Origin: an uncultured Eubacteriales bacterium
Lineage (GTDB): Bacteria > Bacillota > Clostridia > Christensenellales > Aristaeellaceae
Length of the DNA: 64,000 nucleotides
Direction of reading: 5' to 3'
Assembly: GCA_902774025.1 (NCBI GenBank)
Contig: CACYGY010000021.1
Coordinates: 1-64,000, forward strand
Positions 34,620-61,601 of this stretch are shown here, piece by piece; within the stretch, counting starts at the first letter, position 1; the number at the start of each line of letters is the position of its first letter. The translations under genes were made by a program, and so were the position numbers. The notes beneath the pieces were generated by a model, which was not told the origin of the DNA, made no database searches, and saw only the letters and a list, made by a program, of their open reading frames with translations.

Positions 34620-34631
34620 GGAGGTGGAGTC

Positions 34632-39073: not shown

Positions 39074-40120
39074 GTGGCCGAAACAAAGAGAATCGTGGTC
39101 AACGGCAAGCTTCTTGACCATGCGATGAACGGAATTCCGCGTTATGTCTGCGAGGTTCTGAAAGCTCTGGACAGAATCGGGAGCGACCGGTACCGGATCA
39201 CGGTGATCATGCCGGAGGGCCATGACTGGGCCTGGCATCCGGCGAACCTGGAAATGGTGAAACTGCCCCCGTGCGCCGGATGGGATCTGAGGCAGGCGGA
39301 GCGGTACGCCCGGGAATGCGGCGCCCTGTATGTGCAGATGGCGAATCGCGGGGCCGTATACCGGAACAGCGTTTGCGTGGTGCATGACGTGAGGCCGCTG
39401 ACCGAAAAGCCCGGCCTTTCGGGGAAAAAATGGAAAAACAGCCTGAAGTACAGGATGGGTTTTGATCTGGCCATCCGGAACAGTCGGGAAATCGTTGCCG
39501 TATCGTGCTTTACCCGGGACGAGATCCTGCGTCTCCGTCCCCGGTTTCAAAAACCGGTGACCATTATCGGGAACGGATGGGAGCATCTCAGGGAGATCCG
39601 GGAAGATGACAGGGTTTTCGCGGAATTCCCCGGGCTGCGGAAGGGAAAGTATATCCTGGCGGTGAGCAGTATAGCCCCTCATAAAAATTTCAGGTGGATC
39701 GTGGAAAACGCGAAGTATAATCCGGAGCTTCAGTATGTCATTGTCGGAAAGACGGACACGCGGCTGTGGAGCGAGGATACCGGGGTTTTCCGGGATCATG
39801 TGGTCTATCTGGATTACAGGTCCGACGAGCAGCTGATCAGCCTGTACCGCAACGCAGGCGGACTCGTGTTTCCCTCGCGGTATGAGGGCTTCGGGATTCC
39901 CCCTCTGGAGGCCATGAGTTTCGGGCTGAAGGTCTGGGTTTCCGATATTCCGGTGATGCATGAGATCTTCGGGGACACGGTGCGGTATATCCATCCGGAC
40001 AGGCCGGAGGTCCGCCTTCAGGATCTGCCGGAACCGGCAGGCAGAGCGGATCAGGTTCTGGAAAAATACAGATGGGCGGCGGCGGGACAGGCATGGCATG
40101 ATCTGTTCTGCAGGCTGTGA
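39074..40120 (+). CDS. GT4-family glycosyltransferase
   Basis: A 348-residue GT-B glycosyltransferase resembling family 4 mannosyltransferases that use GDP-mannose. The N-terminus carries MNGIPRYVCEVLKAL, then VCVVHDVRPL. The C-terminal half has ILAVSSIAPHKNFRWIVENA and FPSRYEGFGIPPLEAMSFGLKVWVS, which contains the EGFGxxxLEA donor motif. The start is GTG 39074, placed by CGGAGGAAAG. It directly precedes manC. Confidence 0.9.
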   Translation: MAETKRIVVNGKLLDHAMNGIPRYVCEVLKALDRIGSDRYRITVIMPEGHDWAWHPANLEMVKLPPCAGWDLRQAERYARECGALYVQMANRGAVYRNSVCVVHDVRPLTEKPGLSGKKWKNSLKYRMGFDLAIRNSREIVAVSCFTRDEILRLRPRFQKPVTIIGNGWEHLREIREDDRVFAEFPGLRKGKYILAVSSIAPHKNFRWIVENAKYNPELQYVIVGKTDTRLWSEDTGVFRDHVVYLDYRSDEQLISLYRNAGGLVFPSRYEGFGIPPLEAMSFGLKVWVSDIPVMHEIFGDTVRYIHPDRPEVRLQDLPEPAGRADQVLEKYRWAAAGQAWHDLFCRL

Positions 40121-40143
40121 GGCAGACCAGACGGGAGACAGGC

Positions 40144-41220
40144 ATGAAAACAGCAGTACTTATCATGGCAGGCGGCAGAGGAGAACGCTTCTGGCCGAGA
40201 AGCAGGCAGAATACACCCAAGCAGTTTCTGTGTCTGACGGACACGAAGAGAACCATGATCCAGTGCACGGTGGACAGGCTGAGGCCCTTTGTGGCGATGG
40301 AAGACATTTTCGTGGCCACAGGCGAGCTGTACAGGGATCTTGTGCGCCGGCAGCTGCCGGATCTTCCGGAGGAGAACATTATCGTGGAGCCCTGTGCCAG
40401 GAACACGGCGGCGTGCATCGGGCTGGGGGCTGTTCACATGCGGAGGAAGTACGGAGATGCCGTCATGCTGGTGCTTCCCTCGGATCATCTGGTGACGCAG
40501 CAGAAGATGTTTCAGAATGTGATCCGGACGGCATCGGAAATCGCGGAAAAAACGGATGCTCTGATCACCCTGGGCATTACGCCTTCCAGTCCGGATACGG
40601 GATACGGGTATATCCGCTATGACATGGAAAAGCCGCAGGTGATGGGGCAGGCCTATCATGTGGCTGAGTTTACGGAAAAGCCCGGTCTTGAAAAAGCCCG
40701 GAAATATCTGATCAGCGGGGATTACCTCTGGAACAGCGGCATGTTCATCTGGCGGGTGCAGACCATCCTGCAGGAAATGCACCGCTGGATGCCCGGCCAT
40801 GCCGCGGCCATGGAGGAAATCGGAGCGGCTCTGGGAACAGAGCATCTCAGGAGCGTCACCGACAGATGTTTTACCGCACTTCCGTCCGTTTCCATTGACT
40901 ACGGCATCATGGAAAAAGCCGGGCTGATCCTGACCATTCCTTCCTCCTTTGGATGGGATGACGTGGGTTCCTGGCAGGCCGTGGCCAGAATGCATGAGGC
41001 GGACGCGAATGGCAATATTCTGGACGGTGACGCGGTTGTTCTGGATTCGGAAGACTGCATTGTCCAGGGCGGCAGACGCATGATCGCCATGATCGGCATG
41101 GAGCACACGGTGGTGGTGGACACGGAGGATGCGCTGCTGATCTGTGACAGCTCTCATACGTCGGACATCAAGAAACTGCTGGAACAGCTTCGCCGCAGGG
41201 GAAGAGAGGACCTGCTCTGA
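40144..41220 (+). CDS. manC: mannose-1-phosphate guanylyltransferase
   Basis: The enzyme makes GDP-mannose from GTP and mannose-1-phosphate. The 358-residue protein has the nucleotidyltransferase signature [14 protein letters not shown] and the sugar-phosphate-binding lysine in PKQFL, then [14 protein letters not shown] and [10 protein letters not shown]. It lacks the isomerase domain of bifunctional ManC/AlgA, so mannose-6-phosphate must come from elsewhere. ATG 40144 is preferred over GTG 40117 because GGGAGACAGG lies just before it. It starts the GDP-mannose to GDP-D-rhamnose gene set manC-gmd-rmd. Confidence 0.93.
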
Positions 41221-41255: not shown

Positions 41256-42302
41256 ATGAAAAAAGCACTGATCACCGGAATTACGGGCCAGGACGGGAGT
41301 TTTCTGGCGGAGCTGCTCCTTGAAAAGGGATATGATGTGCACGGCATGATCCGAAGGTGTTCCGTGCCCACGACAGAGAGGATTCAGTCCATTCTGGGGC
41401 ATGAACATCTGACACTGCATGAGGGTGATCTGTCGGATTCCAGCAGCATCCTGAGAATCATGAGTCTGGTCAGGCCGGATGAGGTCTACAATCTGGCCGC
41501 CCAGTCTCATGTGCAGGTGAGCTTTGACGCGGCGGAGTATACAGGGGATGTGGACGCGCTGGGCGTGCTGCGCATTCTGGAGGCGGTAAGAACCCTGGGA
41601 CTGGAGAAAACCTGCCGGGTCTATCAGGCCTCCACCAGTGAACTGTACGGGAAAGTGGAAGCCTGTCCGCAGGATGAGATGACCCCCATGCATCCCTTCA
41701 GCCCCTATGCCGTGGCCAAGCTGTACGGATACTGGATGATCCGTGAATACCGGGAAGCCTATGGCGTGTTTGCATGCAACGGTATTCTGTTCAATCATGA
41801 ATCCGAAAGGCGGGGCGAGCAGTTTGTGACCCGGAAGATCACAAGAGCCGCGGCCCGGATTGCCTGCGGTCTCCAGGATCACCTGGAGCTGGGCAATCTG
41901 GACAGTCTCAGAGACTGGGGGTATGCCCGGGACTATGTGGAATGCATGTGGCTGATGCTTCAGCAGCCTGTGCCGGATGACTATGTGGTGGCCACCGGAG
42001 AGCAGCATTCCGTCCGGGAGTTTACAACCCTGGCTTTCCGGGAGTGCGGTATCGAGCTGGAATGGCGGGGCCAGGGGCTGGAGGAGAAGGGATATGACGC
42101 TCGGGGTGTGATGCGGGTCTGCGTCAATCCCGCATGGTTCAGACCTACGGATGTGGTGAATCTTCTGGGCGATCCCCGCAAGGCAAGAACCGTGCTGGGC
42201 TGGAATCCCCGGAAGACCAGCTATGAGGAGCTCTGCCGGATCATGGCCCGGCACGATCTGAAACTGGCGCGGCAGGAAGCCGGAATGAGGGACGGGGTAT
42301 GA
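41256..42302 (+). CDS. gmd: GDP-mannose 4,6-dehydratase
   Basis: It converts GDP-mannose to GDP-4-keto-6-deoxymannose. It is an extended SDR enzyme of 348 residues: the NAD(P)-binding [19 protein letters not shown] at the start, the family motif [12 protein letters not shown], catalytic Thr/Glu in QASTSELYG, the catalytic YxxxK in [12 protein letters not shown], and [24 protein letters not shown] precedes the ATG. The stop overlaps the start of rmd by four bases, so the product is probably passed to that reductase. Confidence 0.95.
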
Positions 42303-43258
42303 AGAGAGTCCTCCTGACCGGAGCGGCGGGGTTTGTCGGGCCCTATCTGATCCGGGAGATGAAGGCAGGCGGCTGGGACGTCATTGCTACGAAACTGCCC
42401 TCCGAAAGCATTGAGCCGGTGGAAGGTGTGGAGATCCGGGACCTGGATGTGATGAAGCCCTCTGATCTGGATTGCCTTTCCGAAGTGCAGCCGGACTGTG
42501 TGATTCATCTGGCAGGGATCAGTTCCGTGAAGTTTTCCTGGCAGAATCCGGACCTGACAATGGATGTGAACATCAAGGGGGTTTCCCATCTCCTGGAGAG
42601 TATCCGGAAAATGCGGGAAAAACCCAGGGTCCTGCTTATCGGCTCCTCTGAGATCTATGGTCTGTCCCAGAAAAGAGGGGTTCTGCTGGAAGATATGCCT
42701 GCGGAACCGGCCAATTACTACGCCATATCCAAGTATGCTCAGGAGAAGATGGGATTCATGCTGGGGAACGCCTACGGTATCCAGGTCATCTCCACCCGTT
42801 CCTTCAACCATATCGGTCCCGGGCAGAATGACACCTTTGTGGTTCCCAGTTTCTGCAGGCAGATCGCGGAAATTGAGGCAGGGCTCAGGAATCCAGTGAT
42901 TCTCGTGGGCAATCTGAATGTCAGCAGGGATTTTACCGACGTGCGTGATATCGTCCGTGCCTACCGGTTCCTGACGGAAGAGGGAAAACCGGGCACGCTT
43001 TACAATGTGGGCAGCGGGAAAGCGGTTCACCTGGACGACCTTCTGAAAAAGCTCATCTCCATGAGTACCCGGCAGATTTCCGTGAGAGTCGATCCTTCCA
43101 GGTTCAGGCCGGCGGATATGCCCTACGTGCAGGCAGGGATTGATCGGCTGCAGAGAGATACGGGATGGGCGCCTGTTCATGAACTGGAGGACACGCTGAG
43201 AGAAACGCTGGACAGCTGGCGGGAACAGGTCCAAAGAGAGATGGAACAGAAGACGTAA
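42299..43258 (+). CDS. rmd: GDP-4-keto-6-deoxy-D-mannose reductase (GDP-D-rhamnose forming)
   Basis: A 319-residue short-chain dehydrogenase. It has [15 protein letters not shown] at the N-terminus, [14 protein letters not shown], the catalytic serine region [21 protein letters not shown] (YxxxK), and [17 protein letters not shown], which is characteristic of RMD reductases that yield GDP-D-rhamnose. A GDP-L-fucose synthase would have different C-terminal epimerase residues, so GDP-D-rhamnose is favoured. It is translationally coupled to gmd. Substrate identity is an inference from the pair. Confidence 0.87.
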
Positions 43259-45036: not shown

Positions 45037-47466
45037 ATGATTTCACTGTATGTGGATGTAACGAATCTGCAGTCCATCCGGTTTCTTACGGGAATTCAGC
45101 GGGTTACCTTTGAAGTGGTCGAGCGGCTGGCCAGACGGAAGGACATTTTCCGACTGCATCTACTGGCGGAGGACCGGGAGAACGGCGGATTCCGCGCTTT
45201 CCGGACAGAGGATTTTCTCAGACAGCAGAAACTGGGGAAAAAGGAAAGCCAGGCGGATCTGACGGAGAGTATTCTGACACTGGACGACATGACACGGGAG
45301 GAAAATCCCGTTTTTTTTGATCTTGACGCGGTTTGGACCTGCATCCGTCTGCGGAGTGAACTGTATCCGGAACTGAAGAAGCGGAATATCCGGATTGTCA
45401 CACACGTATACGATGTGATCGTCATGTCCCATCCGCATCTCACGAGCATGGACAATATCGTCCGCTATCCTCCCTATATTGCGGCGGTCATGGCTTATGC
45501 GGACGCGGTGATCGTCAATACCGAGTACACCCGCCGGGAAATCAGCCGGCTTGCGAAAAAGTACGGGATTGAACGGCAGCAGAATGTGCATGTGATCCCT
45601 CTGGGCGCGGATTTTGCCGGTTCCGGATTCGACGTCGCCCGGGTGGATCGGAAGGCGGAGCAGATTGCGGAAAACGGGCCTTTTGTACTGACGGTCAGCA
45701 CCCTTGAGCCCAGAAAGAATCACGCTCTGCTCCTGGATGCCTTTGATCAGGGTCTGCATGACCTGGGCATCCAGATGGTTTTCGTGGGGCGGGAGGGTTG
45801 GAATGTTTCCGCGCTGATGAAACGGATCCACACGCATCCGGAGTACCAGAAAACTCTTTTTCACCTGGAAGGCATGAATGACGATACGGTGAGATACCTG
45901 TATCAGCATGCCATGATGGTGCTGTTTCCCACATATATAGAAGGCTTTGGCCTTTCCACCATCGAGGCGATCCAGCAGGGGACTCCCGTGGCGGCTTCTG
46001 ACATACCCGTCATGAGGGAAGTGGGAAAGGAATACTGTGAATACTTCGATCTTCACAGGCCTGAGGAGATTGTCAGGATCCTGAAGCGGTACGTGGATCA
46101 TCCGGAGGAATATGACAGGCGCAGAAAAGCGCTGGCGGATTACCGGACTTTTACCTGGGACGACATGGTGGATGGTGTTGAAAAATGTCTCAGGGATACC
46201 GTCAGGAATCCGGAGCCTGTGGAAGGTGAAATCCGGCAGATGGTCTACATTACGGCAAGGGCCGATTCTTTTCTGAAGTCAGTTGTCTATGTGGAGCATT
46301 TCATGCCCTTTATCCGGGAGATTCTGGTTTTCTGTCCCGAAAAAACCGGGAAGGTAATCCGGGATGAATACCGGGGCAACCTTCAGATCCGCTGTATTCC
46401 GGATGAGGAACTGATGCGGGGCAAAGTTCTGCCGGATGATCATGTGACGAGGAACTTTATGCTGCGGGCAGAAACCCTTCGGCGTGAGGAGGTTCAGGAA
46501 CTGTTCATCATGTCAGATGATGATTACAGGCCTCTGAAGATGATCGGACCGGATTTTTTCCTTCAGAACGGACAGATTCAGGCTTTCTTCTACCATGACA
46601 TGGACCAGTACTGCCGGACGGTTCCGGTGACAACTTCCTTTGACGCAGCGATGTACAGGATGCGGCGTTATCTGGAGGAGTGTGACCTGCCCAGACTGTG
46701 CTTCGCTTCCCACATGCCCCAGTTGATTAAAAAGAGCTGGTTCCTGGAAATCCTGGAAAAGCACCCCGCGCTGATGAAGCTGGGAATCTGTGAGTGGAAT
46801 GCTTTCTTCAATATCGCCCGTAATCTCCATCCCAACGCGTTTCATGTGCGTCCCTATGAGACGCTCATGTGGCCGTCGGACCTGACCAGCTGGGAACGGT
46901 ATGTGGCGCAGGAGGATTATGCCTTCGAAAACTATTATGCCGCTTCCTATGAGGAAGGCGGGCTTTTCCATGGGCTGTCCGGGTCCTATACGGACAGATG
47001 CGGGGAAGAAAACCTGGAAAAGATCAGGCGGTACAGAAATCTGCTGGAAACGAACCATGTGCGCGCCCTGGAGATTTACCGGGCGTTTGAGCAGGAATAC
47101 AGGTCCCGCTTCGGTACGAGACCGCAGATCATGTTTTCCATGGAAAATGACAGGGGTGTGTACGGCAGACTGGAGTACATCCGGGCAGGAGAGAATGATC
47201 CCCTCCGCATGAAGGTCAATATCACAGACGAGGTCTATCAGGCAGTTCGGGAAAAAGGATACAAGATTGAACTGGGATGGAACTTTGGAACCGAGCATGT
47301 TCTGTACAGCCGAACAAGGATTACGGAGCCGGAGTTTCCCGTGGTTTTCACCATCATGATCCCCCGCGCGGAGGTGAAAACGGCGATTCATCTGGGATGC
47401 GTGATCAATGACGGGAAATATCAGGATTGTGGAACGGTTCCTCTTCTTATTGAGCGTTGTAAATGA
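45037..47466 (+). CDS. large GT4 glycosyltransferase with a second C-terminal transferase-like domain
   Basis: A protein of 809 residues. Residues 1-385 are a GT4 unit: VDVTNLQSIRFLTGIQRVT at the start, VLTVSTLEPRKNHALLLDAF and FPTYIEGFGLSTIEAIQQG. Residues about 400-680 form a second domain with MVYITARADSF, ELFIMSDDDYRPL and FASHMPQLIKKSW; this faintly recalls Stealth-type phosphotransferases (central DD motif, later H-x-P). The last 110 residues look like a beta-sandwich. It might transfer a sugar and then a sugar-phosphate. It is the last GC-rich gene before the AT-richer block. Confidence 0.75.
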   Translation: MISLYVDVTNLQSIRFLTGIQRVTFEVVERLARRKDIFRLHLLAEDRENGGFRAFRTEDFLRQQKLGKKESQADLTESILTLDDMTREENPVFFDLDAVWTCIRLRSELYPELKKRNIRIVTHVYDVIVMSHPHLTSMDNIVRYPPYIAAVMAYADAVIVNTEYTRREISRLAKKYGIERQQNVHVIPLGADFAGSGFDVARVDRKAEQIAENGPFVLTVSTLEPRKNHALLLDAFDQGLHDLGIQMVFVGREGWNVSALMKRIHTHPEYQKTLFHLEGMNDDTVRYLYQHAMMVLFPTYIEGFGLSTIEAIQQGTPVAASDIPVMREVGKEYCEYFDLHRPEEIVRILKRYVDHPEEYDRRRKALADYRTFTWDDMVDGVEKCLRDTVRNPEPVEGEIRQMVYITARADSFLKSVVYVEHFMPFIREILVFCPEKTGKVIRDEYRGNLQIRCIPDEELMRGKVLPDDHVTRNFMLRAETLRREEVQELFIMSDDDYRPLKMIGPDFFLQNGQIQAFFYHDMDQYCRTVPVTTSFDAAMYRMRRYLEECDLPRLCFASHMPQLIKKSWFLEILEKHPALMKLGICEWNAFFNIARNLHPNAFHVRPYETLMWPSDLTSWERYVAQEDYAFENYYAASYEEGGLFHGLSGSYTDRCGEENLEKIRRYRNLLETNHVRALEIYRAFEQEYRSRFGTRPQIMFSMENDRGVYGRLEYIRAGENDPLRMKVNITDEVYQAVREKGYKIELGWNFGTEHVLYSRTRITEPEFPVVFTIMIPRAEVKTAIHLGCVINDGKYQDCGTVPLLIERCK

Positions 47467-47638
47467 TCTACTGCAATTTCGGAAGGCGGAAGAACCCAAC
47501 AGAGTACTGAAGAATCTGAAATTCGGTGAATGCATGATTACTCATTGAGCGAGTGCTGTCTCAATAAGATTCCTGAAAAGGTTTTCAGGAAGATGAGAGC
47601 ATGGTATACCATATAGAGCAGTGAAGGGCATGATACTC

Positions 47639-48545: not shown

Positions 48546-51500
48546 ATGAGAATTCTTGTATGCAACGAAAAGTATTCTTGTCGTTACGGTCTGGAGAGAG
48601 TTCTTTTGGTTTTGGGTAGTTACTGGAAAAAAAGTGGGCATGAAGTCATACTGATGGGCAGCCAATTTGAAGAGACTACGGTACAGACTGCCTATCGAAG
48701 GATTGTTATGCCTATGTGGTCAGATGAAAAAACCACCGGTGAGGAAGTGTTAAAGTATCTTGAGAATCATTGGAATCAATGGTTTCGGCCATCCACATCT
48801 CCTGACGCAGTTCTGGTAGCCGGATGGTCATATCTCCGGTCGATACCTTTTCTGAAGGACAGGACAGGTGCAGTGGTATTTTACGATTATGGACTTTTTG
48901 CAAAAGAGAGCAGGAGTGGGAACCGAAGATTTCAAATATACCTGAGGAAAATGCGTGATTCACAGCTAAAAATGACGGACTGTGTCATTGCGTCCAGCCA
49001 CTACCTGGAAGAAACGCAGAGCCGGAGAGATGCTGGCAAACAGATTCCTGTTTGTCAGGCGTTTCCGGGATTGGATGGGATTTGCCTGAAAAATGGTCGG
49101 AGCCAAGGTAGCGAGGAACTGATCCACTGGATTCAGGACTGGAAAAAGCAGGGAGAAATAATACTTTTTCAGACTGGAGAATGGGACGAAACTCACATAA
49201 GAGAATCATACGCAGGTGTGGAGGTTATCAGATTCCTGAAAAAAAGCGGTGAGCGCGTTCATTCGATTGTGATGGCTCGGAAACAGGATCTGAAGAATCT
49301 GCCGGAGGATGTGGTGCAGGATTATGTGCCGGTAGAAGGCGTAGATGACACGACATTGAAATACGTAATTGGACTGACAGACATCGGCTTTTCACCGACT
49401 ACCCGTAGTAATCCGGATCTTCTTCTAGGCGAAATTCAAAGTGCAGGTAAAAGCATATATGCAATGAACACAGGAACCTATGCAGAGACTGTGGCACATT
49501 CGTGGTTCCTCTGCAGGAATCTGACAGAGATGGCGGAGAAAGTCTTATGGGATATTCATGATCAACTTCCACTTTCTCGAGAAGAACTCTCCAAAGTATT
49601 GAAAGCCTCTCATGATAGATTGACGTGGGAAAACTGCTCGAGAAGAATGATGGAGCAGATTCAAAAAGCAGCGGAAGAGAAGTATTGTTTTGTGGATGTT
49701 TCCGAAATAAGCTCATTTCCTGACATTTTTCTGAATGGGGGCGTTGTTGAGGAAATCTGTCATGTCTATCAGGTAAAAAGTCAATGTATCTATGTTCTGT
49801 GGAACTGCGACATCAAAGAGTATGTGTTCCCGGATAAAGAAGAGTGTTATCAGTTATATAACCATGGAAGCCAAACTCGTGAGCAAGTTTCTGCAAGAAC
49901 CGGATATGGTGTGGTACAAAATACCTTGAATCAGGTAATGCACAGATGGCAGTATAGACATAAGATTTTTATACTGACAGCAATAAACGAGCCTGTTTTG
50001 GAAAAAATCAGATATTTACATGCAAATGGCTTTTTTGTGGTTATTCTGGTAACCGGCGGCGATCGTTCCGAGACGGCAGGTTCCCTTGGCGTACCCCCCG
50101 AAGATTTGGCAGAGAGTGATGTGGGGTTGGTTTCAGACAAACGGCATCAAACGGAGCTCATTAATATATGGAGAACAAGGGGAATTCAACATGGTTGTGT
50201 AGTGTCGATAAACCCGAATTCAGATATCAATAAGAATTCTTCTGTGTTTTCCAAAGAACGGATACAGGAAAGCGGTATCAAGGCAGTTTTAGCTCGGATA
50301 GATGCGCAATACGATGAAAGTATCCGTTTCAGGTATGAGTTTTTGAATCCAGAGCATCGGTTATTTGTGCTCTCACATTTCCGAGATGAAAATCATGAAA
50401 GAATAATTATCCTGTCTAATTTTTACCCTCCCAAGACATTAGGAGGAGCAGAGATCATAGCACACGAGCAGGCTAAATCATTCCGGAAGCGGGGACACGA
50501 TGTTCTGGTGTTGAGTCTTGACCCCGTGCCTGTTGTTTCAGGGGAGAGATGTCAGTTCCAGGAACTGGACGGGATTCCAGTGGTTAGATTTCGGATTCCC
50601 CAGACCCGTATGCATATTGATTCAGTCTATTATTTCGACGAAGATATCAATGTATGGGCAGGAGAAGTGTTTCATATATTTCGGCCAGATATCGTTCTTG
50701 GGCACAATCTGGTTGGTATGTCGCTGGGAATTCTAGATTTGGCCCGGAATTGTGGTGCAAAGATTGCAGTGACGTTGCATGACAACTGGGGATTCTGCGC
50801 AAAAAATACGTTACTCAACGCCAATGGTGAAATATGCCATGACTATTATAAATGTAGAGGGTGCGCTCCCGAAACAACTGGGAACGGTTATACTTTATGT
50901 CACGAAGTACGCAATACCTACATCCGTAGGATGCTAGGAAAAGCAGATTTGCTTATTGCCCCGAGCCAATATATCGCCCATGGGTATATCCGGGCAGGTT
51001 ATGCAGCAGATCAGATTGCAGTGATTTCCAATGGCATTGATGTGGAAAGATTCAGCAAAGTGAAAAAATTACCATCAGAACGTATCCGGATTTCTTTCTT
51101 CGGATACTTTGGTCTGCATAAAGGTGTGGAAACTCTTATATGGGCTCTGGATGTTCTTAAGGATTCCCGGATTGAATTGGAACTTATTGGAGGCGGACAA
51201 AGGGAAAACGCATATCGTGCATTGGCGGAACAACTGGGGAGAAGTGCGCAGGTTCGTTTTTGGGGACGTATCCCGAACAGTGAAATTGAGAAAGGATATG
51301 CAGAAACAGACATTCTGTGTCTCCCATCTGTTTGGCCAGAAAATCAGCCTGTCAGTATCTGTGAGGCTATGGCCTGTGGTATTCCGGTGATTGCTTCTGA
51401 TCTGGGAGGAAACGGAGAACTGATCCATCATGGTGTGAATGGATATTTGTTCAGGGCAGGGGATAAGGTGGACCTGGCAGATAAGTTACAGCGTTTCCTG

Positions 51501-51932
51501 GATGATCCAGACAGCATTATAAAAATGGGACTCAGGGGACAAGCTATGATAAGAGGGAAAAACTTCGAGGCACAAAGCAGTGAAATCTTGAACAGACTCC
51601 ATGAGAGAACCGGTAGAAATACGGGTTACAGGGAACTGATTTTATGGAAGGGTGTATGTGTGCCCCGGGAGGTGGCGTACATCCGGAGAGAGACCATTCT
51701 TTTGATGAACTGGGTATTAGACAGGAGAGAATGGGGCTATGCACAGCTCTGTGTTCTTGAAGAGGGCCAAACGCTTACATGGAGAGAAGTGCAGGACATT
51801 CATGAGTATGACATACCGATTCTTGTTCCTCAGAGAACAGAGCATATGTATTCGGAACTGAAGACACTGCCTTACACGGACCTTCAGGATATGTATCTGA
51901 AACTGGCAGGTTGGAAGAAACCAGATTGCTGA
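48546..51932 (+). CDS. giant two-domain GT4 glycosyltransferase
   Basis: An 1128-residue protein with two glycosyltransferase-like halves. The first (about 1-380) begins with RILVCNEKYSCRYGLERVLLVLG and ends with a GT-B-like donor domain that is poorly conserved. The middle (about 400-610) holds a variable segment. The second half (about 620-1010) is a typical GT4 unit: IILSNFYPPKTLGGAEIIA, VTLHDNWGFCAKN, VISNGIDVERFS, FFGYFGLHKGVETLI and SVWPENQPVSICEAMACGI. The low GC content marks it as part of the foreign block. It probably adds two sugars. Confidence 0.82.
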   Translation: MRILVCNEKYSCRYGLERVLLVLGSYWKKSGHEVILMGSQFEETTVQTAYRRIVMPMWSDEKTTGEEVLKYLENHWNQWFRPSTSPDAVLVAGWSYLRSIPFLKDRTGAVVFYDYGLFAKESRSGNRRFQIYLRKMRDSQLKMTDCVIASSHYLEETQSRRDAGKQIPVCQAFPGLDGICLKNGRSQGSEELIHWIQDWKKQGEIILFQTGEWDETHIRESYAGVEVIRFLKKSGERVHSIVMARKQDLKNLPEDVVQDYVPVEGVDDTTLKYVIGLTDIGFSPTTRSNPDLLLGEIQSAGKSIYAMNTGTYAETVAHSWFLCRNLTEMAEKVLWDIHDQLPLSREELSKVLKASHDRLTWENCSRRMMEQIQKAAEEKYCFVDVSEISSFPDIFLNGGVVEEICHVYQVKSQCIYVLWNCDIKEYVFPDKEECYQLYNHGSQTREQVSARTGYGVVQNTLNQVMHRWQYRHKIFILTAINEPVLEKIRYLHANGFFVVILVTGGDRSETAGSLGVPPEDLAESDVGLVSDKRHQTELINIWRTRGIQHGCVVSINPNSDINKNSSVFSKERIQESGIKAVLARIDAQYDESIRFRYEFLNPEHRLFVLSHFRDENHERIIILSNFYPPKTLGGAEIIAHEQAKSFRKRGHDVLVLSLDPVPVVSGERCQFQELDGIPVVRFRIPQTRMHIDSVYYFDEDINVWAGEVFHIFRPDIVLGHNLVGMSLGILDLARNCGAKIAVTLHDNWGFCAKNTLLNANGEICHDYYKCRGCAPETTGNGYTLCHEVRNTYIRRMLGKADLLIAPSQYIAHGYIRAGYAADQIAVISNGIDVERFSKVKKLPSERIRISFFGYFGLHKGVETLIWALDVLKDSRIELELIGGGQRENAYRALAEQLGRSAQVRFWGRIPNSEIEKGYAETDILCLPSVWPENQPVSICEAMACGIPVIASDLGGNGELIHHGVNGYLFRAGDKVDLADKLQRFLDDPDSIIKMGLRGQAMIRGKNFEAQSSEILNRLHERTGRNTGYRELILWKGVCVPREVAYIRRETILLMNWVLDRREWGYAQLCVLEEGQTLTWREVQDIHEYDIPILVPQRTEHMYSELKTLPYTDLQDMYLKLAGWKKPDC

Positions 51933-51946
51933 GAGAGGATAATCGG

Positions 51947-54463
51947 ATGAACAAAGGAAGGGTGTGTCAGATCCAGTATAGCCTTGTAAATATGGAGGAA
52001 GGAGAAGAGAAAGCGCACCGGGGCATTGTAAGATTGGACCCTGAAGATTCTGATTTCTCTTTGGTTAGTCCAAAGCTGAATCTGAAAGGGATTACATTGC
52101 TGTTTTCGGGTTTTTCGGGCTTGGATGAGTTAAATGTCAAAATGATGGATGATCGGGGGACTGTTCCATTCAGACTGACACGGGCAGTACAGCGAGATAA
52201 TGAAGAAAAGTGGACGATGGAGCCGCTGATTCCAACCCATGGAAGAATTCGGCTTTGGGGACGTCTGCAGATAACGGGGGCAGATTCAGTTCTTGAGAAC
52301 TGGGATGGGAAGAGGGAAAAAATCATAGGCCTGGAAGATTATTTCCGGGAACAGTCTCTACAAAGAACGGAGGAAAAAGGCTCCGATACGGAGGTTCTGG
52401 AAAGACAATTACAGAAAACGCGACAGGAAGCAGAGCAATGGAAAACTTTGTATGAACAGATCACGCAAGGCAGATTCTGGAGATATACCCGTTTTGTCCG
52501 GAATGCTTTTTCCATATTGCGTGGTACGTTGTCGCCAACTAAAAGAGTGCCCACAGAAGAGAGGAAAGAGAAGGTAGTTGCCCGCGTTCGTGATGTTTCA
52601 GCTCATCGGGGATATCAAATTCTTTTCCTTTTTCAGGACATGAATCCATCAAAAAAAAACCATGCCATGCTGGATTTTTCCCAATATTGCTGCCGATTGA
52701 ATGAGGTGGAACTGTCTTGCGTTCAGCGGGATGCTTATCCGGTCGTTCCGAAAGAACAGGTTTGTATGTTTATTGACATGCATGAGACTCGAGATTTTTA
52801 CCATCTAGTGGTGATCAACACAGTAGCTTCCGTGATTCATTGCACAAAGTGGATAGAAAAGGAAATTCCGATTCTGTTATGGTTTGAGGACTTTCCGAAT
52901 GTCTATTCTTCAGTTATACAAAGGGCACTTCCTTATCACAGACTGGAGTTTATGACATGTGCGTACGCCCAGGAAACTGCTGGAATGATCCTGCATAATT
53001 TGCGTCCCGAATATGAATTGAGCTATGTTCCGTATGTATTTACCACAGAAGGTTTGTGGAATGTACCGGAAGACAAAACCATGAAATCTGAGGCTCATGG
53101 TGACCATAGAGAACAGAGACCGGAAGTTCTGCGATCTGTGGACGAAGGAAAAGAAGTCAACCACAATGACAGTTACGGAATCGAGCAGGCACAAAAAGTC
53201 TGGAATCGTTTTCTCATGACATGTATACGTAAGTTTCATACAGGGGAGAATGATCTGGATTCTGAATGCAGATTATATGAATTAGCAGGTCTGGAAGATC
53301 GTGATCATGTGTCCGTGATTATACCGACATACAAACCGGGAAAAAGAATCAAGCAGTTGTTGGATATTCTTGAAGGGCAGAAAGAGGCCAAGCCTGAAGT
53401 GATCCTTGTGGATTCAGGTTCGGAAAGTTGGGAACTGGAAATAATGCGAAGTCATTCTTCGCAATTGATACAGATTTCACCGGAAGATTTTTCACACTCA
53501 TACGCACGGAATCTGGGAGCGGAAGCTGCTCATGGAGATATTCTGCTGTTCATGACCCAGGATGCGATTCCTCCACATTCAGGATGGATCCGAAACATGA
53601 TTCAGCCGGTTCTCAAGGAAGGAATCTGTGCAGTAACTCCTCGTGAGGTCTGTCCTCCAGATACGGATGTTTATTATCAGATTCTGTCTGAGATGCATAT
53701 GACTTCTCTTGGAATTCAGAATGGACAGGACCGGACAGTTGAAAGGATTATCAGCCTGCAACCAGATGATCTTCAGTCGCGATGTGGACTGAACGATGTA
53801 GCTGCGGTAGTCCGAAAGGATGTTTTTTTCAGATTCCGATACCGATATGATTACGGTGAAGACATAGACCTGGGCCTACGTATGTTGAAGGCAGGGTATC
53901 CCATCCGATTTCTTGGCTCTGAGACTGTATTGCATGGTCATAATCGGAATGCGATGTATTATCTTAGACGTGCGCTGTTGGATCGGAGAACTGTTCGTCA
54001 GCAGATTATTCATGAAAAAAGTGGCAACAGTCGAATTGAAGAAATCAGGAAAGCGGTTGCTTGCTACGGATGGGCTGTTTATTCTGTTGATGATACTGGG
54101 GGAAAAAATGGTCAACGTTGGCTGGACCAGGTGATTAAGTTTTTTCAGAGGAGCAGCAGAAGAGAAATCATCTGGAATGATTCGTGGATGACAAAAATGA
54201 TAGATCAGGAGTTTGGTGTTTTTCTTAGCCAGTTGCCCCAAGAGAAAAAAGAAAAAGATGAAATGCCGGGAATTATCCGGAAGCTTACTCGATTTCTGAA
54301 TATCCAGGTCCGATCATTCATGAGTCGGGAAGGATGGGAAAAACCAATTGTTCTTCATCAAATAACTGAGAAGCATTTTGCAAGTCTGCTGGGCAGTGAG
54401 ATCGCATGCCTTCCTGATGAAGAATTCAGCGACGAGTGGGCTGCGTTATCCACGGGTATATGA
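51947..54463 (+). CDS. GT2-family glycosyltransferase with N-terminal beta domain
   Basis: An 838-residue protein. Residues 1-120 look beta-rich; a short coiled coil follows (about 140-165); residues about 440-690 are a family 2 GT-A domain: VSVIIPTYKPGKRIKQLLD, VILVDSGSESWE, LLFMTQDAIPPHSG (DxD equivalent), and RYDYGEDIDLGLRMLKAGY, a rhamnosyltransferase-like motif. The start at 51947 follows GAGAGGATAATCGG. The C-terminal 300 residues are closely similar to the decayed copy that follows. AT-richer composition than its flanks indicates transfer. Confidence 0.85.
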   Translation: MNKGRVCQIQYSLVNMEEGEEKAHRGIVRLDPEDSDFSLVSPKLNLKGITLLFSGFSGLDELNVKMMDDRGTVPFRLTRAVQRDNEEKWTMEPLIPTHGRIRLWGRLQITGADSVLENWDGKREKIIGLEDYFREQSLQRTEEKGSDTEVLERQLQKTRQEAEQWKTLYEQITQGRFWRYTRFVRNAFSILRGTLSPTKRVPTEERKEKVVARVRDVSAHRGYQILFLFQDMNPSKKNHAMLDFSQYCCRLNEVELSCVQRDAYPVVPKEQVCMFIDMHETRDFYHLVVINTVASVIHCTKWIEKEIPILLWFEDFPNVYSSVIQRALPYHRLEFMTCAYAQETAGMILHNLRPEYELSYVPYVFTTEGLWNVPEDKTMKSEAHGDHREQRPEVLRSVDEGKEVNHNDSYGIEQAQKVWNRFLMTCIRKFHTGENDLDSECRLYELAGLEDRDHVSVIIPTYKPGKRIKQLLDILEGQKEAKPEVILVDSGSESWELEIMRSHSSQLIQISPEDFSHSYARNLGAEAAHGDILLFMTQDAIPPHSGWIRNMIQPVLKEGICAVTPREVCPPDTDVYYQILSEMHMTSLGIQNGQDRTVERIISLQPDDLQSRCGLNDVAAVVRKDVFFRFRYRYDYGEDIDLGLRMLKAGYPIRFLGSETVLHGHNRNAMYYLRRALLDRRTVRQQIIHEKSGNSRIEEIRKAVACYGWAVYSVDDTGGKNGQRWLDQVIKFFQRSSRREIIWNDSWMTKMIDQEFGVFLSQLPQEKKEKDEMPGIIRKLTRFLNIQVRSFMSREGWEKPIVLHQITEKHFASLLGSEIACLPDEEFSDEWAALSTGI

Positions 54464-54572: not shown

Positions 54573-55344
54573 ATTTCATGTGTCTGTGCGGTCAGTCCGC
54601 GGGAAGTTTGCCCTTCCCAAACAGAACCGCGCTATGAGATTCTGTTCGATCTGCACATGCAGTCTCTGGGGATTCGGGATGGACAGAGCCGGACATGAGA
54701 GAGGATTGGTCTGTCACCAGAAGATGCTTAGTCTTCCTGCGGGCTGAATGATATGGTGGCCGCTGCCCGGAAGGATGTATTCAGGAGGTCCCGGTATCTA
54801 TGGATATGGAGAAGATATGGGATTACGGATGCCAAAGGCAGATACATTATCCGTTTCCCGGGGATGGAGATGGTGCAGGAAAAGAGTCTCCATGGAAGGC
54901 AGGAACATGGCCGGAAGGAGAGTCTCCACTGGGGGAGCGGCCTGTTATATTCGGAGTCCTTTGGATACAGATTCCATGAAAGTGAAAGCTTGGCAGAGAT
55001 GGCTGGAAGACGCGCCGTCATATCTACAGAAGGGCAGTATGGGTGAGACGGCTCAGGACGGATCATAGGCGCAGGCAATCCAGGATCCCGCATTTCGCGC
55101 TTTTCTCTCAGAACTGCTGCGGGAAGCCCCACCAGAGGCGGGAATACCGGGTATGATCGGAAATCTGATCTGGTTCCTGGACCAGTGTGTCCGCGGCTAT
55201 ATGGACAGGAAAGGCTGGACAGGCCCCCGGGAACTGTGTGAGATTGCTGAAAAGCATTTTGCATCCCTGATGGGCAGTGAACTGGCAAGGCTTCCGGAGG
55301 AAGAACTCCAGGGAAAGTGGGCAGACTATTCCGGAGGCGTCTGA
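54573..55344 (+). pseudogene. decayed GC-rich copy of the 3' part of a GT2 gene
   Basis: This stretch aligns, frame by frame, with the C-terminal 300 residues of the preceding GT2 gene. CAVSPREVCPS corresponds to CAVTPREVCPP, then HMQSLGIRDGQSRT corresponds to HMTSLGIQNGQDRT, CGLNDMVAAARKDVF to CGLNDVAAVVRKDVF, and finally AEKHFASLMGSELARLPEEE to TEKHFASLLGSEIACLPDEE before the stop at 55342-55344. It contains internal stops (e.g. near 54699 and 54730) and frame changes, and it is GC-rich like the native genes. It is best read as the remains of an older allele displaced by the AT-richer block. Confidence 0.85.
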
Positions 55345-55378
55345 GGGGTGTGCGAGTGCGCAAGGAGGAAGAAAAGAA

Positions 55379-56173
55379 TTGAGATTGGGAAGGAAGGATC
55401 CAGGACGTTCCACATGGGATCTGGAGTTTGAACTGGCCAAGAATGATTTTCACAGCCGCTACGCCAGTTCACAGCTGGGGATCCTGTGGGCGTTCATTCG
55501 CCCTGTGGCTCAGGCATTTGTGTACATTTTTATTTTCAAAGTTCTCCGGGCGAGACCGACCAACACGGACTATCCCTACGCGCTCTGGCTCCTTCCGGGC
55601 ATGATTGCGTGGTTCTTTTTCTCAGAAAGCATTACGGCAGGCGGAAACAGTCTGCTGGAGTATTCCTATCTGGTGAAAAAGGTCCGGTTTCATATCGATA
55701 TTCTGCCACGGATCAAGGTTCTTTCCTCTTTTTTCGTGCATCTGTTTTTCATTCTTCTCATTGTGGTGCTCTTTCTCGTTTTCGGCATGCCTCTGTCCTG
55801 GAAAATGCTCCAGCTGCCTTACTATACCCTGGGACTGCTGATCCTTTCCGTTTCCATGGCCCGGATCAACTGCTCCATCGTTCCCTTCTTCCGGGATTTC
55901 TCGCAGATTCTGGAGATTATTCTGATGGCCTTTATCTGGGCCTGTCCCATCATGTGGGACATTTCCATCATTCCGGAGCGCTTCCAGACCCTGGTTCAGC
56001 TCAATCCCATGTACTATATCGTGACGGGATACCGGAATTCCTATATCAATGGCGCGTGGTTTTTTGAACAGGGCTGGCAGACTCCGTATTTCTGGGGTTT
56101 TGTCCTGCTTCTGGATCTGGGAAGCAGAAAGTTGTTCCAGAGACTGAAACCGCATTTTGCGGACATTTTGTAA
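55379..56173 (+). CDS. Wzm-type polysaccharide ABC transporter permease
   Basis: A 264-residue ABC-2 permease with six membrane segments, the normal length for Wzm/TagG. It starts with LEFELAKNDFHSRYASSQLG, the family's cytoplasmic gate helix, and has LNPMYYIVTGYRNS near the end. The start is the TTG at 55379, eight bases after AAGGAGGAAG; the frame is open upstream only because it crosses the end of the pseudogene. Its ATPase partner follows. It is the second exporter of the locus. Confidence 0.92.
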   Translation: MRLGRKDPGRSTWDLEFELAKNDFHSRYASSQLGILWAFIRPVAQAFVYIFIFKVLRARPTNTDYPYALWLLPGMIAWFFFSESITAGGNSLLEYSYLVKKVRFHIDILPRIKVLSSFFVHLFFILLIVVLFLVFGMPLSWKMLQLPYYTLGLLILSVSMARINCSIVPFFRDFSQILEIILMAFIWACPIMWDISIIPERFQTLVQLNPMYYIVTGYRNSYINGAWFFEQGWQTPYFWGFVLLLDLGSRKLFQRLKPHFADIL

Positions 56174-56186
56174 GGAGACTCGTTTC

Positions 56187-57458
56187 ATGGATGAAGCCGC
56201 GGTTGTTGTGGACCATGTCGGGAAGCAGTATCACACATACAGGCGCAATGTGGACCGTTTTTTTGAGGCGGTCTCCTTTCGGCAGCGCAAGCTTCATGAG
56301 GTGTTCAGCGCTGTTGAGGACGTGAGTTTCACGCTGAACAAAGGGGAAAGTCTGGGGATCATCGGCCTGAACGGGTCCGGAAAATCAACTCTGCTGAAAA
56401 TGATCACAGGCGTGCTCCAGCCCAGCCGGGGGAATATCCGGGTGGAAGGGCGGGTCAGCGCACTGCTGGAGCTGGGCGCCGGATTTAACAGGGAATATAC
56501 AGGCATCCAGAATATCATTCTTAATGGGAAAATCATGGGGTACACAGAGGCGGAGATTCGCAGGCGAATTCCGGAAATCGCCGAGTTCGCAGACATCGGC
56601 CGGTTCCTGGAGCAGCCCGTGAAAGTGTATTCAAGCGGCATGTTCGCGCGCCTGGCCTTCGCTGTGGCGATCAATGTGGATCCGGATGTCCTTATTGTGG
56701 ATGAGGCGCTGAGTGTCGGGGATGTGTTTTTCCAGAGCAAGTGCTACCATAAGTTTGATGAGTTCCAGAAGAAGGGAAAGACCATTCTGTTTGTGTCCCA
56801 TGACCTGAACAGCGTGGTCAAATACTGTAGCCGCTGTCTTCTGCTGGACAGGGGAAAACAGATCGCCTTTGGGGACTGCAAGGAAGTTGTGGACATTTAC
56901 CGGAAAATCCTGGTGCATCAGTATTATGATCAGGACAGGCAGGGTAATGGGCAGGCAACGGAAAGCAGGAGCGCTGTTTTCTCTGACATGAAGAAAAAAA
57001 TGCGTCTGAATCCCAGCTTTTCGGAATATGGGGATCATGCCATCACCATTGAGGACTTTGGAATTTTCAATGGCAGACAGGAACTGACGGGGGTCATTCA
57101 GAAGGGCGAGGAATGCACCTTCGCCATTCGTGTCCGGTTTCACCGGGAAGTGGCAGACCCGATTGTAGCCATCACCATCAAGGATCTGCGGGGAACGGAA
57201 CTGTGCGGAACCAACACGCTTCTGGAAGGCTGCCAGGTCCGGGACCGGGGAGGAGACCATACAGGCGTGGTCAGATTCCGTCAGAAGCTCCTTCTTCAGG
57301 GAGGACAGTATCTGATCTGTCTCGGAGTGACCAGTTATCAGGGAGACGAGCTTGTTGTGCATCAGCGCCTGTATGACTACTGCCATTTACAGATCCTCAG
57401 TCAGTACAATACAGTCGGAATCTATGACATGGCATCGGAAGTGGAGTATGAAGCATGA
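56187..57458 (+). CDS. Wzt-type ABC transporter ATPase with C-terminal substrate-recognition domain
   Basis: A 423-residue ATPase. The nucleotide-binding domain (1-245) has GIIGLNGSGKSTLLKMI (Walker A), YSSGMFARLAFAVAINVDPDVLIVDEALSVGD and the switch histidine in LFVSHDLNSV. A linker leads to a beta-sandwich domain (about 290-415) of the Wzt_C kind, with TFAIRVRFHREVADPIVAITIKD. In E. coli O9a-type systems this domain recognises the capped end of the chain. The start at 56187 follows AAGGAGACTCG. The next gene is the methyltransferase-kinase, which fits the cap-recognition model. Confidence 0.93.
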   Translation: MDEAAVVVDHVGKQYHTYRRNVDRFFEAVSFRQRKLHEVFSAVEDVSFTLNKGESLGIIGLNGSGKSTLLKMITGVLQPSRGNIRVEGRVSALLELGAGFNREYTGIQNIILNGKIMGYTEAEIRRRIPEIAEFADIGRFLEQPVKVYSSGMFARLAFAVAINVDPDVLIVDEALSVGDVFFQSKCYHKFDEFQKKGKTILFVSHDLNSVVKYCSRCLLLDRGKQIAFGDCKEVVDIYRKILVHQYYDQDRQGNGQATESRSAVFSDMKKKMRLNPSFSEYGDHAITIEDFGIFNGRQELTGVIQKGEECTFAIRVRFHREVADPIVAITIKDLRGTELCGTNTLLEGCQVRDRGGDHTGVVRFRQKLLLQGGQYLICLGVTSYQGDELVVHQRLYDYCHLQILSQYNTVGIYDMASEVEYEA

Positions 57459-57522: not shown

Positions 57523-59355
57523 ATGATCGAATATGTGGGCAAGGTCAGACTGGACCTGAGCCACTGGAACGGGGAAGACCGGTATTCAGACGGGGATGAA
57601 ACAGAAAACGCGCTCATGGAAGCCGTAACGAAGGAGCAGGACAGGGAAAAGCTTGGTGAGACAGCCATTGCATCGGGAAAATGGCCTCTCCTCTATCATC
57701 TCTCCCCGATCCGGGAGAACATTCTGAACTGGTACCCTTTCCGGGCGGGCAGCCGTATTCTTGAACTTGGTTCGGGGTGCGGAGCCATGACCGGTGCTTT
57801 GCTGAACAGAGGGTATCAGGTAACGGCAGTGGATCTTTCCGCCAGAAGAAGCAGAATTAATGCGATCCGGCACCAGGATGCGGAAGATCTGACCATTGTG
57901 GTGCAGGAAATGCGGGAAGCTTTGCGCACATTGTCCGGAGCATTTGATTATGTGCTGCTCGTCGGTGTTCTGGAGTACGCTTCCGTGTTTATTCAGGAAA
58001 AGGACGCGCATGAGGTCATCCTCAGGGAGATCCGGAAGCTGCTGAAGGAGGACGGAATCGTCCTGATCGCCATAGAAAACCGGCTGGGGCTCCGGTACTG
58101 GGCAGGAGCCCGGGAAGATCACACGGGTCTTTTCTTTGAGAGTCTGATGAATTATCCGAATCATCAGGGCCCAAGGACGTTCAGCCGGACAGAACTGATC
58201 CGGCTTTGCGAAAACTGCGGTTATCAGGCATTCTTCTATTATCCTTACCCGGATTATAAGTTCCCGATACAGATTTTTTCTGACAGTCACCAGCCAAAGC
58301 CCGGGGAGTTTACCCGTTCCTGGCAGTACCTGGATGCGGACCGCTGTTTTCTCTTTGATGAGCAGCAGGTGGCAGACTCACTGATTCCCGCAGGTCTGTA
58401 CCGTGAATTTGCGGATTCTTTTCTTGTGGAACTGACCCTGCAGGGTGTGCGGGATGACCGGGTTGTGTTTGTGAAGTCATCCTGTGAACGCAGTCTGCCT
58501 TACAGGATGAACACGCTGATTATCCGGCAGGATGGCAGGAAGTTCGTTCGCAAGATGGCTTCAGGAAGGGATTCTTTCGGACATATCGACAGAATTGCGG
58601 AAAACGGAAAACGCCTGAGGGAGGCCATGTGCCGGAATGCCCGGATTGAGATTCTGCCCTGCAGAAAAGTGGACGAGGGAATGATTGAATTCCCGTTCAT
58701 GGAAGGGGTCACTCTGCGGGATGTTCTGACAGAAGCCGGAGCGGAAGGAATGGGCCCGCAGCTGCTTGATTTTCGCAAGGCACTGGAAGACTCCTTCGGT
58801 ATTGAGGATTTTCAGGTGACCGAAGAATTCAGACGGGTTTTCGGGGATATCCCTCTGCCGGATGGACTGAGCAGTCTGAGGATCAGCAATCTGGACATGA
58901 ACTTTGACAACGTGTTTGTGGAGAATGGACGTTATACGCTGTTTGACTATGAGTGGGTCATTGATTTTCCCATTCCGATGGAGTATCTTCTCTACCGCTC
59001 ACTGCTGTCGGAATACCATTTCGGAAAACTGAGCGGGGAACAGCAGTGTAAAATACTGAAAGCGGCGGGGATCCGGACTGAGCTGTGTGATCTGTATCTC
59101 AGAATGGAACAGCGGTTTCAGAAATATGTGTCAGGCAATCTGCACTGCCTGAATGAGTTTGACCGATCAGCCATTCTTCAGAGAAGCAGTACTTTCCGGC
59201 AGCTGATCCAGAGCAGGGAACAGGTTCGTCAGGGAGCTGGCGGACCGGCAATGGCGGAGGCGGGGACGGGAAAAAATCTGCAGGATTACGTGAAGGGTGC
59301 CGTCCGTAAAGCCGGAAAGGTGTACCGCAGCATAAAAAGCAGTTTCCAGGGATAA
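57523..59355 (+). CDS. SAM methyltransferase-kinase fusion (WbdD-like chain terminator)
   Basis: A 610-residue bifunctional protein. Residues 60-245 form a class I methyltransferase with the SAM motif RILELGSGCGAMTGAL (about 77-92), VTAVDLSARR and FDYVLLVGVLEY. Residues about 325-500 have a protein-kinase/aminoglycoside-kinase layout: FVRKMA (ATP lysine, about 341), MIEFPFMEGVTLRDVL hinge, RISNLDMNFDNVF (catalytic Asp and Asn, about 455) and TLFDYEWVID (metal Asp). A basic amphipathic helix ends the protein. This order matches WbdD, which phosphorylates and methylates the end of O9a O-antigen. The long coiled-coil ruler of WbdD is not present, and this is a Gram-positive-type genome. Confidence 0.8.
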   Translation: MIEYVGKVRLDLSHWNGEDRYSDGDETENALMEAVTKEQDREKLGETAIASGKWPLLYHLSPIRENILNWYPFRAGSRILELGSGCGAMTGALLNRGYQVTAVDLSARRSRINAIRHQDAEDLTIVVQEMREALRTLSGAFDYVLLVGVLEYASVFIQEKDAHEVILREIRKLLKEDGIVLIAIENRLGLRYWAGAREDHTGLFFESLMNYPNHQGPRTFSRTELIRLCENCGYQAFFYYPYPDYKFPIQIFSDSHQPKPGEFTRSWQYLDADRCFLFDEQQVADSLIPAGLYREFADSFLVELTLQGVRDDRVVFVKSSCERSLPYRMNTLIIRQDGRKFVRKMASGRDSFGHIDRIAENGKRLREAMCRNARIEILPCRKVDEGMIEFPFMEGVTLRDVLTEAGAEGMGPQLLDFRKALEDSFGIEDFQVTEEFRRVFGDIPLPDGLSSLRISNLDMNFDNVFVENGRYTLFDYEWVIDFPIPMEYLLYRSLLSEYHFGKLSGEQQCKILKAAGIRTELCDLYLRMEQRFQKYVSGNLHCLNEFDRSAILQRSSTFRQLIQSREQVRQGAGGPAMAEAGTGKNLQDYVKGAVRKAGKVYRSIKSSFQG

Positions 59356-60002: not shown

Positions 60003-61601
60003 ATGGAGGTTGCTGACTTGGAGCACAATGACAACGACAAGGGTTTGATGAATAAAGACACCCAGATTCAGCTGATCCTGAATCAGCCGGAGGACGATGA
60101 TTCCGAGATTGATCTGGGCCGTGTCTTTCACACCATGAAAAAGAAATTCAGAATCTTTGGCTGGGTGATGATTCTGTTCCTTCTGGTGGGTGTCTGCATA
60201 CCGCTGGTGATGTATCAGATCAACCGTAAGCCGTCTTCAGTTACATCCGTGGTGACACTCCGGTACTATATCTCCAATCCGCAGTATCAGGAATTGCTGA
60301 ACAGAGGAGCTGAGATCGATCCGGAGAAAACCCCGAAGGAAATTCCGGTAAACCGACTGATCGCCCCGGACGAAACAGAACTGGACCTGAGTCAGATCAC
60401 GGCGTCCTCTGTGCTGAGTGATGCAATCAGTGATCTGAACCTTAGCCAGAAACTGGATCTGGATCAGCTCCGTACAAATATAACGATCACCCGCGTGCTC
60501 ACAGAAGAGAGCAGCCGCCTCCGGGAGACACTGGTTGGCCTGGCAAACGCCAAGGACAACTCGGTGTACAACCGTCTTTCAACGGCGGAAATGGAATATC
60601 AGCCCCGGTTTATTGTCACGCTGTCCAATGGTTTCGGAGCTTCAGATTCGAGAAGGAAAGCCGAGCTGACGGATGAAGAACTGCGTATTGTTCTGGATCG
60701 GATTCTGTCATCCTACAATCTGTATCTGGTGGAAACCTATGCGGATGTGAAGCTCCCGGAAGACGAGATTTCCGTGATTGACGTGGAGAATCTGGATATC
60801 CTGGAGAGTATGGACCTGCTGGAAATGGCAGTGGACGATCTGCGCGCGTACTGCGACTCCAAATCGGATAATGTCAAGAGCTATCGCTCATGGCGGACCG
60901 GAAGGACTCTTCTGGACTGGATTGATACTCTGGACATGCAGAAGAGTGCCAATGTGGATTATCTGGAAGCGTTTGTGTATGCCAGCAGCATCACAAAGGA
61001 CAAGGATGCGGTGAAAGTATCCTATATGTATCAGTTGCGCAATCTCCAGAATCAGCTGACAAAGCTGGAAGAAACCATTCAGGCTACCGATGAATCCCTG
61101 AAGAACTACACAAACGATAAGGTTTTCGTTTCCATGCAGGACAGTGACAGTGTCCGTTCAACCAGTGCGGTTACCGCATACTACAACAATCTGGTGCTGG
61201 AACAGGCGGAGAATTACGAGGAATCCACACGACTGCGCATAGAAATCGCTGAAATCCAGAATAAACTGTCCAGACTTGAGGCCATGAGCGGAACCAATGA
61301 TACATCCGAAGCGGAGAAAGAACTGCAGTATTCCGTCCGGCTGATTCAAACCACCTATGAGGAGATTTCAGCGCACATGGAGGAACTGATTGCGAGTCCC
61401 ATCTTTTCCACGTACGCAGAACACAGCAATCCTCAGGGTAAGACGGTGAGCTTTATCACTGCATCCGCGAAAAAGATGCTGATCGGTGGAGGCGTCGGTC
61501 TGGTTCTGGCACTGGGGCTTTGGTTCCTGGCGGGACTGGCGCCGGAATTCAGGCATAATTCTGCCAAAACACAATCCGGAAAGGAGGCGGCGGGTAAATG
61601 A
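60003..61601 (+). CDS. Wzz-like chain-length determinant / polysaccharide co-polymerase
   Basis: A 532-residue membrane protein with the Wzz topology: a cytoplasmic N-terminus, a membrane segment at about 55-75, a large extracytoplasmic part (about 80-485) with helical coiled-coil stretches, and a second membrane segment (about 490-515). There is no tyrosine-kinase domain. The start is uncertain: ATG 60003 has little ribosome-binding sequence, while TTG 60018 lies eight bases after GGAGG (60005-60009) and would remove five residues. It is coupled to the next gene by an ATGA overlap. Confidence 0.85.
   Translation: MEVADLEHNDNDKGLMNKDTQIQLILNQPEDDDSEIDLGRVFHTMKKKFRIFGWVMILFLLVGVCIPLVMYQINRKPSSVTSVVTLRYYISNPQYQELLNRGAEIDPEKTPKEIPVNRLIAPDETELDLSQITASSVLSDAISDLNLSQKLDLDQLRTNITITRVLTEESSRLRETLVGLANAKDNSVYNRLSTAEMEYQPRFIVTLSNGFGASDSRRKAELTDEELRIVLDRILSSYNLYLVETYADVKLPEDEISVIDVENLDILESMDLLEMAVDDLRAYCDSKSDNVKSYRSWRTGRTLLDWIDTLDMQKSANVDYLEAFVYASSITKDKDAVKVSYMYQLRNLQNQLTKLEETIQATDESLKNYTNDKVFVSMQDSDSVRSTSAVTAYYNNLVLEQAENYEESTRLRIEIAEIQNKLSRLEAMSGTNDTSEAEKELQYSVRLIQTTYEEISAHMEELIASPIFSTYAEHSNPQGKTVSFITASAKKMLIGGGVGLVLALGLWFLAGLAPEFRHNSAKTQSGKEAAGK

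Follow-up and report, generated by a model that had tools for sequence, protein, structure and literature searches.

A putative ORF6-O7-type methyltransferase-kinase chain terminator adjoining a Wzm-Wzt exporter in a Clostridia genome

INTRODUCTION

Methylphosphate cap-and-export has so far been described for O-antigens of Gram-negative bacteria. ORF6 of K. pneumoniae O7 combines a methyltransferase with an unannotated kinase resembling AmiN, a CBM-like domain, a coiled coil, and GT2 modules (PMC11231755). In vitro, ORF6-O7 phosphorylates and methylates the terminal rhamnose, and the D441A variant is inactive (PMC11231755). Its authors consider it distinct from WbdD, and their survey placed its relatives in alphaproteobacteria, gammaproteobacteria, and cyanobacteria (PMC11231755). 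For Gram-positive bacteria, a precedent for a capped, ABC-exported glycan is WsaE of Geobacillus, with a methyl cap (PMC2943079). In the literature searched, coverage of which was incomplete, we found no description of a kinase-bearing cap module in Clostridia.

Here, we analyzed a 64,000-nucleotide stretch (the window) from an uncultured Eubacteriales bacterium with a gut-type Clostridia genome (GCA_902774025.1, contig CACYGY010000021.1, positions 1 to 64,000), in which a reading of the sequence alone had noted a WbdD-like methyltransferase-kinase gene next to an ABC exporter. We propose, with a probability of about 0.78, that the product of this gene is a terminator of the K. pneumoniae O7 ORF6 type that acts at the non-reducing chain end and, by analogy, would cap a glycan with methylphosphate for export. 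The analysis shows its domain folds, its conserved active-site positions, its orthology across both domains to gammaproteobacterial enzymes of this type, and its tight genomic linkage to Wzt_C.

RESULTS

A SAM methyltransferase fused to a predicted kinase

The features of the locus are collected in Table 1. In the 610-aa product of the gene (the window protein), Pfam model Methyltransf_23 matched residues 73-235 (1.6e-12), while no Pfam or NCBIfam model covered the C-terminal half. The full-length AlphaFold2 model was modest (pLDDT 70.6, with residues 187-215 and 259-297 below 50). Residues 296-549 modeled alone, with four relatives, reached a pLDDT of 84 and a pTM of 0.82, and the best PDB match of this model was APH(3')-Ia (Z 12.5, rmsd 3.9, 202 residues), with LicA (Z 11.6) and the amicoumacin kinase AmiN (Z 11.1) among the further matches. 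As modeled, the second domain is a kinase fold of the aminoglycoside phosphotransferase-like kind; the sequence-only reading had staked its case on residues 325-500 folding as a kinase, and it passed this check. K344, D458, N463, and D475 were invariant in 7/7 aligned sequences, an alignment outside which stood the L006 sequence with its internal stop. The Pfam match, the modeled fold, and these invariant residues bear out the earlier claim of a methyltransferase-kinase fusion with intact-looking catalytic residues.

Table 1. Coordinates of the putative capping module and its neighbors in the window
Feature	Position	Strand	Basis or remark
Mannose-1-phosphate guanylyltransferase-like	40117..41220	+	TIGR01479 4.7e-98, below curated cut-off
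GDP-mannose 4,6-dehydratase	41256..42302	+	TIGR01472 over cut-off
SDR, RMD/epimerase type	42299..43258	+	Pfam GDP_Man_Dehyd 1.1e-55; no NCBIfam model over cut-off
GT4 glycosyltransferase	45037..47466	+	Pfam; role inferred
Large GT4 glycosyltransferase, candidate polymerase	48546..51932	+	Pfam; role inferred
GT2 glycosyltransferase, candidate polymerase, upstream of Wzm	51911..54463	+	Pfam; polymer assignment inferred
Wzm permease (ABC2_membrane)	55277..56173	+	Pfam; 51-59% identical in L001-L003
Wzt ATPase with C-terminal cap-binding-type domain	56190..57458	+	Wzt_C at 57021-57431
Methyltransferase-kinase, putative chain terminator	57523..59355	+	ATG start, 610 aa
SAM methyltransferase domain, residues 1-295	57523..58407	+	Pfam; positions aligned to published ORF6-O7 sites
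Kinase domain, residues 296-545; K344, catalytic D458, N463, D475 (in D-Y-E-W)	58408..59157	+	AlphaFold2 model, PDB comparison, conservation
Short tail, amphipathic helix 585-602, without coiled-coil ruler	59158..59352	+	Run length, moment, three-frame check

The catalytic module groups with ORF6-O7

The comparison with ORF6-O7 was made through P0003, a Pseudomonas asturiensis plasmid protein in which Y28, Y66, G91, G93, E112, and Y158 fall exactly on the numbers published for ORF6-O7 and the catalytic Asp lies at 443 (441 in ORF6-O7). All these positions are kept in the window protein, with E112 replaced by D: alignment to the published positions places the SAM site at Y21, Y58, G83, G85, D104, and Y152, and D458 aligns with the ORF6-O7-type catalytic Asp. 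The profile of the clostridial family aligned with P0003 over both domains (hhalign; probability 100, E 4e-53, 488 columns). From this alignment and the conserved published positions, we assigned this catalytic module to the ORF6-O7 type. Judged through P0003 and the published residue numbers, the window protein is orthologous to ORF6-O7-type terminators across both domains. The Citrobacter and Pseudomonas plasmid homologues also have an ABC permease and an ATPase upstream.

We consider it very unlikely that the protein is instead a WbdD orthologue proper, with a kinase of the eukaryote-like kind as in E. coli O9a. The domain order is the same, and WbdD structures ranked first among Foldseek matches of the whole-protein model (E about 1e-8, ~572 columns), albeit with low TM-scores. 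Against this, identity to WbdD is about 12% and the sequence profile did not match it; the kinase domain alone matched APH-type kinases best, and WbdD was not listed among its best 50 PDB matches, a result that still leaves room for a relation. The earlier label "WbdD-like" describes the likely function and the domain order well, but WbdD is not the nearest relative; the closest tested enzyme is ORF6-O7 with its APH-like kinase.

Linkage to a Wzt_C exporter in Clostridia

The methyltransferase-kinase gene starts 64 bp 3' of the Wzm-Wzt pair, and the Wzt_C match was strong (1.9e-33; 115.9 bits against a curated cut-off of 30.4), so that the direct succession of Wzm, Wzt with a C-terminal domain, and methyltransferase-kinase stands as originally described. 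The genome of the window has one copy of the full methyltransferase-kinase, adjoining its only Wzt_C domain. LpxC and Omp85 were absent from this genome (92% complete), in searches that detected them in control genomes, in agreement with the earlier view that the host shows no sign of an outer membrane or lipid A. A second Wzm-Wzt pair lies at 33174-35372, its Wzt lacking the C-terminal domain, with an O-antigen-ligase-like protein (29148-30551) not far away.

A search for the same triad in other Clostridia, which the sequence-only reading had suggested, showed that it recurs. The family was found in 25/391 sampled Clostridia genomes (E below 1e-30) and Wzt_C in 67/391; Wzt_C was present in 23/25 carriers of the methyltransferase-kinase versus 44/366 other genomes (Fisher p 1.5e-17). 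These genome counts are not phylogenetically independent, but a genus-level co-occurrence test agreed (18/19, p 2.4e-14). Both genes lay on a shared contig in 22 genomes, separated by 33 bp to 4.1 kb, with 15 of them showing a gap of <300 bp. Across the phylum, 13/398 sampled genomes carried the family, nine of them outside Clostridia. Within the genus of the window, only 1/8 other genomes had a clear full-length relative, and the distribution is therefore patchy.

The conservation of the neighborhood also bears on the possibility that the enzyme makes phosphocholine or another methylated phospho-alcohol, with a LicA-like kinase acting on ethanolamine or choline, the methyltransferase methylating, and LicD transferring the product to a glycan. 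LicA is among the fold matches noted above, phosphomethylethanolamine methyltransferase ranked first among the PDB sequences matched by the family profile (1.7e-6), and cytidylyltransferase and LicD genes lie just downstream of the window. At 34 related loci, however, LicD occurred at 2 and the cytidylyltransferase at none, compared with 28 for Wzt_C; the downstream cytidylyltransferase is part of a fusion with PEP mutase, indicative of phosphonates, and ORF6-O7, the tested orthologue, acts on a sugar. We therefore regard this activity as most improbable. No more credible is a glycan ending in an O-methyl sugar as in WsaE, with the methyltransferase working alone and the kinase vestigial or structural: a methyl-capped ABC-exported glycan is known in a Gram-positive (PMC2943079), but the catalytic residues of the kinase are invariant in the aligned family, and genomes that encode the two activities separately retain a kinase gene next to the methyltransferase gene. 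Such splitting into two neighboring genes was seen in several genomes and is as expected for two cooperating activities.

Candidate glycan-building genes around the module

Upstream of the exporter, the cluster encodes sugar-nucleotide enzymes and glycosyltransferases (Table 1). With a GDP-mannose 4,6-dehydratase and a probable partner reductase in the cluster, a 6-deoxymannose-type sugar in its glycan is plausible but unproven; the SDR possibly makes GDP-D-rhamnose, and the substrate of the terminator may possibly be a mannose- or D-rhamnose-type glycan.

Further observations were made in this region. Between 54582 and 55341, pieces in more than one frame resemble the C-terminal part of the GT2 upstream of Wzm and look like a decayed duplicate. 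At 47621-48475, an amphipathic or coil-like N-terminal stretch is followed by a degenerate methyltransferase-like half, which might serve as a further factor in length control or capping. Beginning at window position 63228 is a gene in which nucleotidyltransferase, cytidylyltransferase, and PEP mutase are fused (G000:C21:63228-65267, L026:3228-5267; TIGR02320 over cut-off); this gene and a LicD gene past it (L026:7395-8219) together suggest that a surface glycan is decorated with phosphonate.

The tail lacks a coiled-coil ruler

Coils were assessed by two proxies, the length of Pro/Gly-free runs and repeat period; a home-made heptad-periodicity scan was dropped because it did not tell the L001 repeat tail apart from shuffled sequence. 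Past the kinase, the longest Pro/Gly-free run was 18 residues in the window protein versus 99-187 in its nearest relatives, and no frameshifted coil was found in three frames beyond its stop codon. Segment 585-602 was amphipathic (moment 0.67 versus 0.26 in shuffles, nominal p 0.0006). The missing ruler and the amphipathic C-terminus of the window protein, both previously noted, are thus upheld. The absence of a coil, which the tested enzymes carry, argues against the ORF6-type explanation; because of it, we assign the catalytic module, and not the full architecture, to ORF6-O7. The CBM-like domain of clostridial methyltransferase-kinases had not been relocated to the GT2 upstream of Wzm, where there was no match; a similar domain is present instead in a GT2 protein at 31457-33163 (E 2.6e-8).

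Four types of tail follow the kinase among the relatives: a Pro/Gly-free tail with a 21-residue period (L001-L003); a CBM-like beta domain, in some cases accompanied by a coil; a coil with GT2 modules after it (L027, L074, L076, and L081); and a short tail, as in the window protein, L028, and L079. In the first type, 63-bp tandem repeats inside the gene encode 21-aa units, six in L001 (L001:9770-10120), six in L002 (L002:9771-10117), and two in L003, and their period and composition suggest that these tails are coiled coils. L001 and L003 share 89.5% identity across the preceding 9.9 kb and 99% across the 3.7 kb that follow. The 84 residues by which they differ would correspond to ~12.6 nm at 0.15 nm per helical residue, if a straight helix is assumed. 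Six versus two repeats may represent natural variation of a length ruler, and repeat collapse in these metagenome assemblies is possible. A missing ruler therefore characterizes the window protein and is not a trait of Clostridia, given the coil-like tails with variable repeats in L001-L003.

Length control had been tentatively attributed to two Wzz-like proteins (60003-63013). Only a marginal Wzz match was obtained in Pfam, and neither protein was found at any of the 34 related loci; since these neighbors are not conserved with the system, the attribution is unsupported. Lacking a coil, the window protein probably allows looser length control, governed by how much terminator there is at the membrane relative to polymerase, or by a coil elsewhere, in another protein.

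DISCUSSION

By analogy with the described terminators, we infer a methylphosphate cap, its recognition by Wzt, and the following order of steps. The C-terminal kinase would phosphorylate the terminal sugar of a glycan assembled on undecaprenol in the cytoplasm, and the N-terminal domain would then methylate the terminal phosphate from SAM, whereupon elongation would stop. The amphipathic tail could hold the terminator at the membrane, and Wzt_C would recognize the capped chain end for export. A capped, ABC-exported surface polysaccharide in Clostridia, as first proposed from the letters of the DNA, is in keeping with the module, its linkage, and the lack of outer-membrane markers; the part assigned to Wzz length control falls away.

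The occurrence of the family in Bacillota would extend kinase-bearing cap-and-export glycan assembly beyond cells with an outer membrane, and predicts an unusual terminal methylphosphate on surface glycans of gut commensals. It may even be, although we put this forward tentatively and would sooner bet against it, that methylphosphate-capped ABC-exported glycans are widespread in monoderm Clostridia, with chain length tuned in evolution as 63-bp coil repeats are gained and lost, the coil is relocated, or the ruler disappears altogether. If so, the natural variants would already form an experiment on the molecular-ruler model. The variants with 6, 2, or no coil repeats and with fused or split domains could be used to ask how chain length is set.

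Three described systems frame this comparison. WsaE of the Geobacillus stearothermophilus S-layer glycan (PMC2943079) is likewise Gram-positive and serves an ABC-exported glycan to which its N-terminal methyltransferase adds the terminal cap, but WsaE joins a sugar O-methyltransferase to two rhamnosyltransferases, and no kinase has been described in it. WbdD of E. coli O9a and K. pneumoniae O3 (PMC3482155) shares the order of methyltransferase and kinase, the overall fold order, a Wzt_C partner, an amphipathic C-terminus, and, as expected by analogy, a methylphosphate cap; it probably differs in the subfamily of its kinase, described as eukaryote-like, and it differs in negligible sequence similarity and in the coil ruler that is absent here. 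ORF6-O7 agrees with the window protein in domain order, the APH/AmiN-type kinase, the SAM-site positions (E112 as D), the catalytic Asp, and the adjoining Wzm-Wzt, whereas the window protein lacks the CBM-like domain, the coiled coil, and the fused GT2 modules and comes from a Gram-positive host. From these comparisons, the window protein would belong to a known kind of terminator, as a Gram-positive variant that lacks the ruler.
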